NCBI GenBank assembly: GCA_964023275.1 | Contig: OZ029921.1 | Coordinates: 19,219,109-19,283,108 of the forward strand | DNA: 64,000 nt | Direction: 5' to 3' | Origin: Norana najaformis | Lineage: Eukaryota > Annelida > Clitellata > Crassiclitellata > Hormogastridae | In this document: positions 27,682 to 64,000 of the stretch, in pieces | Numbering within the stretch: the first letter of the stretch is position 1 | Layout of the letters: every line of letters begins with the position of its first letter | Position numbers and translations under genes: made by a program | Notes under the pieces: generated by a model | Database searches by the model: none | Told to the model about the DNA's origin: nothing | The model's input: the letters and a program-made list of their open reading frames with translations, nothing else

Positions 27682-27843
27682 ATGGCTAAAGTAGTCAATT
27701 ATCGCCCGGCTGGTTTTGAATTAAACGATAATTCTGATGACGATGACTTTTATGAATATGAAGGTCTGCCGGTTAATGTGTATGATCCGTGCGCATGTCT
27801 CCAAAGGCGGAATGCTGCGGTAGGATTACACTGGTCAACATAG
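27682..27843 (+). CDS. Short acidic ORF cut by a transposon insertion
   Basis: A 53-codon ATG-started ORF (MAKVVNYRPAGFELNDNSDD...) with an Asp-rich stretch and a 'YDPCACLQRRN' segment. A TATA-like CTATAAATAT lies about 95 bp upstream. Its last five codons are transposon sequence: the 3-bp target duplication TTA (27826-27828) lies in frame just before the inverted terminus. The original reading frame was therefore probably longer. I recognise no domain with confidence. Confidence 0.35.
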   Translation: MAKVVNYRPAGFELNDNSDDDDFYEYEGLPVNVYDPCACLQRRNAAVGLHWST

Positions 27844-28138
27844 AAATCGTTACTGACTGGAAAAGGCCCTAATGTGTAGCATCTTGGTGTGCTGAACACG
27901 AATATAACCATAAAAATTTTTTATTGGCTCTCGTTTTGAAAATATTTCATATAGTTCATTTTTTATGTTTCACCATGTAAATTTATGCAGTAGGACTGCG
28001 ACAATATCCTAAATAAGTCTAGAATGATGTAATATTCCACCTCATTGCATAATCCCATCATGGACACATCATGCACAGTTGATTACGTCATTTTCTGATG
28101 CAATGTAAAACTACAGCCAGTCGGCTGCTGACGTAAGA

Positions 28139-28163
28139 TGACGTCAGCAGTGTACTATATAAA
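28139..28163 (+). promoter_or_regulatory. CRE palindrome and TATA box of the transposon ORF
   Basis: TGACGTCA at 28139-28146 is preceded 11 bases upstream by a half-match TGACGTAA. TATATAAA lies at 28156-28163. The ATG of the ORF is 115 bp downstream of the TATA box, leaving room for a short leader. The layout suggests an RNA polymerase II promoter that could respond to CREB/ATF factors (inference). Confidence 0.6.
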
Positions 28164-28277
28164 GCGACTCGGAACGGTTGAGCATTTACAATATTACAGA
28201 CTTTGTGCGAGACAGTTTAAGTTACTGTTTTATAAAACTATTATTACTTTATCCATTTAGATACAATACAGACAGTA

Positions 28278-29968
28278 ATGCCTCGGAAGTGCGTAAATAC
28301 TGTGGACAACTTTTGTTACATTTGTGGGGAAGTGACATTTGCCAACCAGAAGAAAAGTATCACTTATCAAGTCAAGAAGGCATATCATGCTTACTTCGAA
28401 TGCAAGGTTGGTGACCAAGACAAGCCATGGGCCCTGCATATATGCTGTGCTACATGTACAACACAGCTTTCACAGTGGTTGAATGGCAAAAGACCATCAA
28501 TGCCGTTTGCAGTTCCCATGGTGTGGAGAGAGCAAAGCAACCACGTAGATGACTGTTACTTCTGCTTGGTTCCTCCTCTTTCCGGTGGAATAACGAAGCA
28601 AAAGAAGTCGACAATAGTCTACCCAAACATTCCGTCAGCATTGAGACCAGTTCCACATGGTGATGGACTTCCTATTCCAGAACCTCCAGCAGAATATATT
28701 TTCCTTGATTCATCTGATGAGGACAAGGGTGAGCCGACATGTTCTTCTCCTGGTCCGTCAGCGTGCAGTGATCCCGATTTTCACTGTGGTGCATCATCAA
28801 CCCCACACAGAATAACACAGGAAGAACTAAATGACCTTGTTCGTGATTTGGACTTATCCAAAAACAAGGCAGAATTGCTAGGATCAAGACTCCAACAATG
28901 GAATCTTCTAGAAGAAGATGTCACAATTACTTCATATAGAAAGCGCCATCAGCAGTTGGAACCTTTCTTTATGAAGGAAGTTAATCTGGTATTCTGTTCC
29001 AATATTGACGACCTCATGAATGCCTTACAGATCACTCATGACCCACAAGAATGGAGACTCTTTTTAGACTCTTCAACACTGAGTCTTAAGGCTGTGCTTT
29101 TGCACAATGGAAACCGTCTTCCATCTATTCCATTAGCGCATGCTGTCCACATGAAAGAGACATACGATAACCTAAAACAGCTACTGCATTCCATTGACTA
29201 TAACAGGTACAAATGGCACCTGTGTGGTGATTTGAAGGTAGTTGCCATTTTAATGGGACTGCAGCAAGGATATACAAAATATATGTGTTTCTTGTGTGAG
29301 TGGGATAGCCGAGCAAGAGAGTTGCACTACGTGCGGAAGGAATGGACTCCCAGACAAAACATGGCAGTTGGACAGAAGAATATCCAGCACCCAGCTCTGG
29401 TCGAGGCTCACAAAATCCTACTACCACCCCTTCACATCAAACTAGGTTTGGTGAAGAACTTCGTGAAAGCCATGGACCGCACTTCGCCAGCTTTCCGATA
29501 CCTGCATGAAAAATTCCCTCGACTCAGCGAAGCAAAGATTAAAAAGGGAGTTTTTGTGGGTCCTCAGATTAGAGAACTCTTCAAAGATGACCGCTTCAAC
29601 AACTTGCTGGAGGGTGATGCGAAACAAGCATGGAATGTTTTCGTCTAGTGTCTACAGACTTTCTGGGGAATGTTAGGGCAGAAAACTACAAGGAACTAGT
29701 AGAAGACATGCTCAAGCAGTACCAGAAATTTCGCTGCAATATGTCTCTGAAGATGCATTTCCTTCATTCCCATCTGGATTTCTTCCCTGACAACTGTGGT
29801 ATGGTTAGTGACGAACATGGCGAACGTTTTCATCAAGATATCGCAACAATGGAGCAAAGGTACCAGAGAAAATGGTCCACTACAATGTTGGCTGACTACT
29901 GCTGGACACTCCGCAGAGATGCTCCCGAACAGCTGTACAAGAGACAGGCAAAAAAATCTAAGAACTAG
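28278..29968 (+). pseudogene. Transposase-like protein of the CACTA-like element, one frameshift
   Basis: Intronless ORF starting MPRKCVNTVDNFCYICGEV. Frame 28278-29648 breaks near 29636-29641 in a T-run, and the frame 29630-29968 continues it (VSTDFLGN... to KKSKN, stop). One missing base explains the break. The N-terminus has clustered Cys/His pairs (CYICG; HICCATC), suggesting a zinc-binding DNA-recognition module. The middle has candidate catalytic residues: Asp264 in LFLDSS, Asp318 in LCGDLKV and a C-x2-C pair (337/340) in MCFLCEWDSR. A Glu/His cluster in VSDEHGERFHQD follows in the second frame. This order (D, D, C2C, E) is what CMC/hAT-type RNase H transposases show, so the catalytic reading is my inference. 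I recall near-identical intronless proteins as multi-copy 'uncharacterized' entries in other invertebrates. Confidence 0.8.
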
Positions 29969-30204
29969 TCTATGACCTGGTTTTTACAAATATTAACTGT
30001 AAGTGTATCACTATTGGCATGCATTGTGCAATATAAAATTACTTCATTTCAGATTACAAAAAAACTAGAGCCAATTCGGCATTTTCACTGTCATATTCGT
30101 GTTCAGCACATACAAATTGATAAGAACTGACTAATTTCATTTCAGTAACATGACTTTTGTAAAAATTTGTTGTCCAGTGTTATCGAGTCCTTGCATGCTA
30201 ACCC

Positions 30205-60740: not shown

Positions 60741-60889
60741 AAGAAGCATTCATAAGCTTAAATCTAGCGCCAGATTAGATCACTATTAGATCCATCTGAT
60801 ATGTTTCATAAAGGTCTCTAAACTGTTTTAGAAACGCACATAAAGACTTTGGAAGAAGATCCGCTTCCTGCCAGAGAGACTTCCTATAT

Positions 60890-61475
60890 TCGAACGTCGT
60901 ATCCTTCTGTCCGCTCTCCTCCTACTTCGGATCAGAAAAGCTTCCTATTCAAGCGTCGTATCCTTCTGTATGCTCTCCTACTTTGGATCAGAGAAGCTTC
61001 CTATTCGAACGTCATATCCTTCTGTCCGCTCTCCTCCTACTTCGGATCAGAGAAGCTTCCTATTCAAGCGTCGTATCCTTCTGTATGCTCTCCTACTTTG
61101 GATCAGAGAAGCTTCCTATTCGAACGTCATATCCTTCTGCCCGCTCTCCTCCTACTTCGGATCAGAGAAGCTTCCTATTCAAGCGTCGTATCCTTCTGTA
61201 TGCTCTCCTACTTTGGATCAGAGAAGCTTCCTATTCGAACGTCATATCCTTCTGTCCGCTCTCCTCCTACTTCGGATCAGAGAAGCTTCCTATTCAAGCG
61301 TCGTATCCTTCTGTATGCTCTCCTACTTTGGATCAGAGAAGCTTCCTATTCGAACGTCATATCCTTCTGTCCGCTCTCCTCCTACTTCGGATCAGAGAAG
61401 CTTCCTATTCAAGCGTCGTATCCTTCTGTCCGCTCTCCTCCTACTTCGGATCAGAGAAACTTCCTATTCGAGAGT
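60890..61475 (+). repeat. 115-bp satellite (59+56 dimer), about five units
   Basis: Each unit joins a 59-nt half beginning GAACGTCATATCCTTCTGTC and a 56-nt half beginning AAGCGTCGTATCCTTCTGTA. Both end in 'GGATCAGAGAAGCTTCCTATTC'. Successive units are nearly identical. Because 115 is not a multiple of three, each frame cycles through the same peptides, and all three plus-strand frames stay open for about 560-680 bp. No start context, splice sites or homologous protein support coding. Confidence 0.9.
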
Positions 61476-61649
61476 CACGCGTTCGACATCTCGAGGTCAT
61501 CTGTCTGTCTGCTCTCCACATAACTTCTGATCGTCCTCGGTTCCCAGTTGCTGAAGAAAGGCATCTCCTTCTTGAAGAAGAACAGCCAGCGACGTCATCG
61601 ATTTCCGTGAACTGCCCAAAGATCTGAATTGGTCCTCAAACCCATCAAT

Positions 61650-62860: not shown

Positions 62861-63300
62861 TCTTAGTAGGCCTACTAAATTTCCTAGGCCTAAAGGCCTA
62901 TTTAGGCCTAAAGGCCTACTAAATTTCCTAGGCCTAAAGGCCTATTTGGGCCTAAAGGCCTACATTTTAAAACGAATTTTCTAGCCCTAAAGGCCTATTT
63001 AGGCCTAAAGGCCTACTAAATTTCCTAGGCCTATTTAGGCCTAAAGGCCTACATTTAAAACGAATTTCCTAGGCCTAAAGGCCTATTTAGGCCTAAAGGC
63101 CTACTAAATTTCCTAGGCCTAAAGGCCTACACCCGTTCCTAGGCCTAAAGGCCTACTAATTTTTAAGTAAATTTCCTAGGCCTAAAGGCCTATTACCTTT
63201 CCTAGGCCTAAAAGGCCTATTTAGGCCTAAAGACCTATAACCGTTCCTAGGCCTAAAGGCCTACTAAATTTCATAGGCCTAAAGACCTTTCTAGGCCTAA
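62860..63300. repeat. AGGCCTA palindrome array
   Basis: Dozens of palindromic AGGCCT cores arranged as CCTAGGCCTAAAGGCCTA, separated by TTT or CTAAATTT spacers. The combined unit (about 43-48 bp) recurs irregularly with ACCCGT/ACGAAT variants. Both strands carry the same motif, so the array can form many nested hairpins. Confidence 0.95.
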
Positions 63301-63740
63301 AAAGCACAAAAATGGAGAAAAAGGTAACAAGAAAGGTAAAGATGCAGAAAGAGGAGAAAAAAGACAAAGAGAAAAAAGCTAATAAGAAAGGTGCAGATGT
63401 AGAAAGACAAGGTGCAGATGTAGAAAGACAAGGAAAAAAGCTAATAAGAAAGGTGCAGATGTAGAAAGACAAGGTGCAGATGTAGAAAGACAAGGAAAAA
63501 AGCTAATAAGAAAGGTGCAGATGTAGAAAGACAAGGTGCAGATGTAGAAAGACAAGGAAAAAGCTAATAAGAAAGGTGCAGATGTAGAAAGACAAGGTAC
63601 AGACGTAGAAAGACAAGGAGAAAAAATCTAATAAGAAAGATAAATATTTAGAAATACCTAACAAGGAGAAAAAAGCTAATAAGAAAGGTAAACATTTAGA
63701 AATACAAGTTAAACATGTAGAAAAAAGCTAATAAACAAGA
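63300..63740. repeat. 61-62-bp minisatellite (Lys-rich on plus)
   Basis: The unit is GGTGCAGATGTAGAAAGACA twice, then AGGAAAAAAGCTAATAAGAAA. The period measured at GCTAATAAG is 62, 62 and 61 bp. It decays toward 63740. From there to the end of the window no gene is visible. Confidence 0.9.
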
Positions 63741-64000
63741 TCGCTAATAAAGAAGGGTACAGATGCAGAAATACAAGCAGACAAAAGGAGAAATGAGAGG
63801 GAAGAAAAACGAAAGAAATAGACCTAAGCAGACATATAAATTGGCAAAAAAGAAAGTGTTCAATGTCCCGTTATTTACAACTGAAGGTCATGAACGGGCC
63901 TTCAACTCTTTCACTGCTTTTCCCTAAACATTTCTCTAATGCATCTTGGTTCATTTCCTTTTACTCTCTGCTTAGACAGAAAAACACACGAAGACAGACG

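Follow-up and report, generated by a model that had tools for sequence, protein, structure and literature searches.

A young EnSpm/CACTA-like transposon whose truncated copies carry long target duplications, with one-ended integration as a possible origin

The genome of Norana najaformis carries about 1,060 copies of a recent, recently active DNA transposon, and many of its copies have an orderly kind of damage. Of 118 copies that we examined, 34 have lost at least 10 bp of one end, and in these truncated copies, a direct copy of the target sequence that adjoins the intact end has taken the place of the lost end. Where this duplication is at least 8 bp long, it grows with the number of bases lost. 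We propose, with moderate confidence, that these copies formed when a single end was transferred into the target and the insertion was finished by microhomology repair. The element itself is probably EnSpm/CACTA-like.

We analysed a window of 64,000 nucleotides (C9:19219109-19283108) and searched the genome to which it belongs (608 Mb in 17 contigs). The window contains one copy of the element (Table 1), with ends that read CACTGGTCAA...TTGTCCAGTG. A first-pass annotation of this single copy had described inverted CACTGG termini, a second inverted block inside the ends, a TTA direct duplication, and one long ORF with a broken frame, and all of these hold up. The terminal repeats (CACTGGTCAACA and TGTTGTCCAGTG) are complementary at 11 of 12 positions; the subterminal block lies 59 bases in from the left terminus and 69 in from the right; TTA lies on both sides; and the ORF of this copy is frame-broken near its end. 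The same annotation saw a promoter framing the ORF. TATA-like and CRE-like sites are indeed present, as consensus matches only, and the CRE-like TGACGTCA occurs four times in the window, versus 0.62 expected. Elsewhere in the window, positions 60887-61476 have 59- and 115-base tandem units (about 10 and 5 copies) with three overlapping open frames; this is a repeat array rather than a gene. A cluster of tandem repeats with 44-, 62-, and 48-base units lies at the window's right edge (62868-63741). An Rfam scan of the window returned nothing informative.

Table 1. Features of the transposon copy in the window (positions are those of the window)
Feature	Position	Strand	Basis
Element, one of about 1,060 copies	27829..30179	+	sequence, inverted-repeat analysis, genome probes
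TTA target duplication, left copy	27826..27828	.	sequence
TTA target duplication, right copy	30180..30182	.	sequence
Left terminal inverted repeat, CACTGGTCAACA	27829..27840	+	inverted-repeat analysis
Right terminal inverted repeat, top-strand letters TGTTGTCCAGTG	30168..30179	-	inverted-repeat analysis
Small inner inverted repeat, left arm (15 nt, 80%)	27849..27863	+	inverted-repeat analysis
Small inner inverted repeat, right arm	30135..30149	-	inverted-repeat analysis
Subterminal inverted block, left arm (50 nt, 80% complementary)	27888..27937	+	inverted-repeat analysis
Subterminal inverted block, right arm	30061..30110	-	inverted-repeat analysis
CRE-like TGACGTCA, 5' of ORF	28139..28146	+	consensus match only
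TATA-like TATATAAA, 5' of ATG	28156..28163	+	consensus match only
Putative transposase ORF, first part in this broken copy (456 aa)	28278..29648	+	ORF list; role inferred
Putative transposase ORF, remainder in another frame	29618..29968	+	ORF list

Probes of 35 bases, allowing up to 2 mismatches, matched the genome 950 times for the left end, 929 times for the right end, 1,063 times for the interior at position 648, and 1,053 times for the interior at position 1,552. Reversed control probes had no matches genome-wide at the same threshold, so the family is multi-copy well above chance. The end counts are about 11–12% below the interior counts, which are flat, so the losses are terminal and about equal on the left and the right (some of the uncounted ends may merely carry more than 2 mismatches). 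The mean pairwise difference is just 0.43% among 31 full-length copies from the 40 that were found by DNA search. When we paired the listed exact ends (96 right and 100 left), we obtained 76 pairs and were left with 20 right and 24 left ends. Of the pairs, 71 span 2310-2359 bases and only 2 are shorter, so internally deleted derivatives are not numerous among them. Some of the unpaired ends reflect mismatches in the partner only: copies L171, L172, and L183 possess both ends. On contig 2, three copies lie within 60 kb (C2:6911819, C2:6959941, and C2:6969936).

The 118 examined copies comprise the 40 found by DNA search, 58 more from the ORF list, and 20 that were picked for having an unpaired end. 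(One of 59 further ORF-list copies, C2:21672319, was left out, as was L022, which is part of L048.) Eighteen of the 40 DNA-found copies are also on the ORF list. The DNA-found list (40) and the protein list (77) are the best of 1,502 and 6,565 candidates, so both are biased towards intact copies. Furthermore, the DNA-found copies are left-anchored: 38 are on the plus strand, all begin at the left end, all 40 share the first 10 bases of the left terminus, and 32 attain the right end. For rates we rely on the 76 ORF-selected copies, whose selection is independent of the element's ends. (For most of these, just about 80 bases of flank were read, and longer duplications would escape notice there.) Among the first 40 copies only the right end seemed to be lost, but this asymmetry is an artefact of the search: the ORF-selected copies include 13 with 5' truncations and 5 with 3' truncations (at least 10 bp lost from one end), which accords with the 450 bases to the left and 214 bases to the right of the ORF.

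Thirty of the 76 ORF-selected copies are intact to within 3 bp at both ends and carry an exact duplication of 3 bp (TTA in 11, TAA in 11, and other triplets in 8). (One of these copies lies in TTA repeats.) Because mispaired flanks agree at 3 or more bases in 0.19 of trials, a few of the 30 may be due to chance. Besides the 18 truncated copies, 4 have exact duplications of 4-5 bp, 23 are full-length without an abutting 3-bp duplication, and 1 is intermediate or otherwise. Across 40 copies whose ends are intact and whose 3-bp duplication is exact, the first base of the duplication is T in 0.90, the second is always A or T, and the third is A in 0.90; the preceding base is A in 0.88 and the following base is T in 0.72. 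The element prefers to insert into a small palindrome, A-TWA-T.

These results confirm the first-pass annotation's main claim, mobility: the family is multi-copy and recent, with CACTG ends, exact duplications that are mostly TWA, and an intronless ORF. Its expectation that further copies would share the termini and have a 3-bp duplication was only partly right. Many copies do share the termini, but many others end elsewhere, and among the ORF-selected copies 46 of 76 either are truncated or have no simple 3-bp duplication, which could not be seen from a single copy. These deviating copies follow a pattern and do not undo the evidence for mobility.

In all 34 truncated copies one end is intact, except in L133 and, by one base, in L055. 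The less damaged end adjoins TTA, TAA, TAG, or TTG in 26 of the 34, versus a background of 0.10. In 23 of the 34, the abutting duplication is at least 8 bp (range 10-76 bp), a length that mispaired flanks reach in 0.0013 of trials. These 23 copies lost 24-387 bases, and the loss is correlated with the length of the duplication (Spearman 0.87; 1 of 20,000 permutations was as high). For instance, losses of 36, 90, 203, and 305 bases go with duplications of 13, 30, 45, and 76 bases. The median ratio is 0.25, or about 1 bp duplicated per 4 bp lost. The correlation is seen for 5' losses (0.94, n=12), for 3' losses (0.89, n=11), and among ORF-selected copies alone (0.73, n=12). Two copies, L045 and L168, are off the trend, and without them rho is 0.96. 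If all 34 truncated copies are included, rho falls to 0.42 (p 0.013), or to 0.25 (p 0.16) by the strictest measure.

The other 11 truncated copies have a duplication of under 8 bp or none. Three of them lost little: L038 and L169 lost 14 bp each, with 4 and 6 bp duplicated, and L170 lost 25 bp, with 7 bp duplicated. L099 and L175 sit in simple repeats. L087 and L129 are 5'-truncated, and their left flanks are related foreign repeats (87% over 92 bases), possibly from another mobile element nested in them. L042, L113, L155, and L185 are without explanation.

The joints of the truncated copies also show microhomology. All 22 joints with a duplication of at least 6 bp and no filler have 1-5 bp of it. 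By chance, 24% of joints would have any, and none of 20,000 resamples attained the observed mean. (This count omits the filler joints L187, L046, and L143, duplications of under 6 bp, and L099, L113, L155, and L175.) Among all 34 truncated joints, microhomology is absent from four: L042, L046, L087, and L129.

Empty sites were another proposed check, with a mixed outcome. L187 lies in a repeat. When its flanks are joined across one 22-bp segment, the resulting sequence aligns unbroken to all 40 scored places (of 4,236 candidates). As the empty site holds one 22-base segment, the second copy arose with the insertion. A search for an empty site of L061 gave none: L061 lies in mostly unique DNA, which matched itself in two overlapping pieces and had 27 weak partial matches.

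We propose that the transposase would act on the CACTGG ends and join them to A-TWA-T targets with a 3-bp stagger, but that in a large share of insertions it would join a single end only, usually beside TTA, TAA, or TAG. This first joining would open one target strand and leave a 3' end from which the target can be copied. The other transposon end would stay a free break and be trimmed, by the 24-387 bp seen in the 23 copies. During trimming, the opened target strand would be extended, so that neighbouring target is copied and the future duplication becomes longer. The free end would then be sealed to the target by microhomology-mediated end joining, perhaps of the polymerase-theta type. The slower the joining, the more of the transposon would be lost and the longer the target duplication would be. 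Either end of the transposon could be the faithful one.

What we observe is one faithful end in most truncated copies, a trimmed other end, long duplications, their scaling with the loss, and microhomology. From these products we infer the order of events, the displacement synthesis, and the repair enzyme; no transposition intermediate was seen. Our proposal would explain why one end is faithful and why it can be either end, why losses are close to the ends while the interior counts are flat, why the two lengths are proportional, and why the joints have microhomology.

We also considered that both ends were inserted and that one end of a heterozygous copy was cut later, followed by interrupted gap repair. 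The flank would invade the empty homologue, copy the target, release, and join the trimmed transposon end by microhomology. It is well established that other transposons undergo interrupted gap repair after excision, which counts in favour of later cutting, and the final structure, the scaling of synthesis with trimming, and the microhomology would all be identical. The states of the two ends bear on this as well. Among the 76 ORF-selected copies, T[A/T][A/G] adjoins both intact ends in 25, only the left in 20, only the right in 15, and neither in 16. If one end were always faithful, few copies should be in the last class, but 14.7 are expected if the ends are independent (Fisher p 0.64), and this counts against one-ended transfer. 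(Six of the 16 have exact 3-bp duplications of other triplets.) Similarly, damage of at least 4 bp at both ends is seen once, in L133, versus 1.2 expected. Separate later cuts would give such independence. We had argued that damage at both ends was too rare for later re-cutting, but we dropped this argument because such damage is as frequent as independence predicts, and this lowers the odds of one-ended transfer and raises those of re-cutting. On the other hand, re-cutting would need to have affected one end in 18 to 46 of 76 copies in a family with about 0.4% divergence. This objection is an argument from economy and not a test.

One-ended transfer and later cutting with gap repair yield the same product, and the present data fit both. 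We consider later cutting to be a serious contender, if somewhat short of probable. Our sole reason for favouring one-ended integration is how often the scars occur in so young a family. The stronger claim, that this transposase uses one-ended integration regularly and that the length of the duplication records how long the break stayed open, is tentative, and we would not yet count on it.

A single fixed end with long variable duplications also resembles the insertions of non-LTR retrotransposons, so we considered replication into the target from one end, with early stops giving truncated copies. This seems very improbable. Losses occur at either end and, among the sampled copies, mostly stay under 310 bp; abortion predicts a gradient of interior counts instead of the flat counts at positions 648 and 1,552. 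Furthermore, we know of no scaling of duplication with truncation for non-LTR-type elements. Least credible of all is ordinary cut-and-paste followed by unrelated deletions and assembly errors: this may account for L042, L113, L155, and L185, which have no duplication, but deletions do not make abutting duplications of 10-76 bp, which exceed the chance matches of mispaired flanks, and the empty site of L187 carries one copy.

The element is a mobile DNA transposon, and intact copies encode an intronless protein of 563 or 565 codons. Among the DNA-found copies (the best 40 of 1,502 candidates), 35 have a frame of at least 563 amino acids, and among the scored protein matches (the best 77 of 6,565 candidates), 73 are stop-free. 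No Pfam family matched the protein at E up to 10. A single-sequence search of PDB had no match at E up to 10, and a profile search of PDB had one unrelated chance match (E 1.1). PHROGs gave one chance match only (E 0.3). No match to the protein turned up in viral contigs, in plasmids, or in contigs of prokaryotes, and these scans lend no support to the first-pass annotation's suggestion that the ORF family is a widespread orphan one. An AlphaFold model, built without divergent relatives, has a mean pLDDT of 34 and is unusable. By eye, and unaligned to known members, we placed candidate residues in the 563-aa frame: D264, D318, C337-x2-C340 (19 residues past D318), and H494-x4-H499, which precedes E513/E516. 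These could be the D, D, and E of a catalytic site. The spacing of C(2)C and H(4)H-type motifs in RAG1 is, we presume, similar. A DDE transposase of the clade with CAC ends (EnSpm, Mirage, Chapaev, and Transib/RAG1) is the most likely identity of the protein. A second, related family codes the motif DEHGERFHQD differently at 305 places in the genome (such as C1:5453463 and C1:7257387), with TTC where the family studied here has TTT.

The first-pass annotation's class, CACTA-like, fits the termini, the duplication, and the motifs placed by eye, while Pfam and PDB lend it no support. EnSpm/CACTA-like (CMCT clade) is probably the best class; we say probably because neither a profile nor a structure match backs membership. 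The termini do have the form 5'-CAC...GTG-3' (CACTGG...CCAGTG), and a 3-bp duplication is exact in the 30 ORF-selected copies, with the other 46 deviating. No profile of a known transposase in Pfam or PDB matched. Chapaev3 elements also have CAC ends and a 3-bp duplication, with a transposase lineage of their own, so ends and duplication alone do not tell Chapaev3 from EnSpm. The target duplication is TTAA for piggyBac and 5 bp for Transib; the duplication here speaks against piggyBac, since it is 3 bp and TAA is as common as TTA, and against Transib, since precise copies show 3 bp. It speaks against hAT as well, whose duplications are 8 bp, or 5-7 bp, according to the accessible part of PMC12730594. 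In that same text, EnSpm/CACTA transposases have C(2)C and H(3-4)H between the second D and the last E, and the likeness to our element extends to the CAC...GTG ends, the 3-bp duplication, the inverted subterminal block, and, if our placement by eye is right, these motifs. The differences are that our element is 2.35 kb, with a single intronless 563-aa ORF and no Pfam match, and that its one-ended scars are frequent, whereas the portions of the EnSpm/CACTA literature that we examined describe none. The element is young and its frames are intact, and it would be an autonomous transposon of the EnSpm/CACTA type.

Whatever the mechanism, the CACTG ends could also be convergent and the protein a member of a different superfamily, be it piggyBac, hAT, Transib, or one not yet described. 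The protein has no profile match to any family, and some piggyBac elements start with CACTAGA (PMC4298943, as far as its text was available). However, the 3-bp, mostly TWA duplication is unlike the TTAA, 8-bp, and 5-bp types, and the C(2)C and H(4)H pairs, as placed by eye, would be located as in the available part of PMC12730594. We think another superfamily unlikely.

Other animal elements have been assigned to CACTA, namely the TRC elements SmTRC1 and Spongebob, but in the available parts of PMC1636069 and PMC4298943 these start with CCC and have 2-bp duplications, instead of CACTGG and 3 bp. Only 7 of 14 SmTRC1 copies have duplications (PMC1636069, same part), which may or may not be an imprecision similar to that of our family. 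Replication-coupled alternative transposition of maize Ac/Ds also involves ends made by transposase, extra copying of flanks, and breaks joined by microhomology. As presented in the accessible portion of PMC4270019, it uses the ends of two elements, copies kilobases, and makes 8-bp duplications, whereas here one element and tens of bases are involved. In the literature we examined, including parts of PMC8289069 (ProtoRAG) and PMC4270019 and with most subscription papers outside its scope, no such one-ended insertion scars with microhomology are described; this absence does not show that they are unpublished.

DNA transposons are classed by duplications of fixed length, so copies with a trimmed end and 10-76 bp duplicated would be discarded or misclassed. 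In this family such copies are common, occur at both ends, and are quantitatively ordered. If they formed during integration, then the transposase does not need both ends for a viable insertion, and the copies are a genome-wide record of how breaks are trimmed, extended, and sealed. If later cutting produced them, the repair steps on record are the same. And if the one-ended route is true, the kinetics of repair would be recorded naturally in this family, at about 1 copied base for every 4 trimmed.
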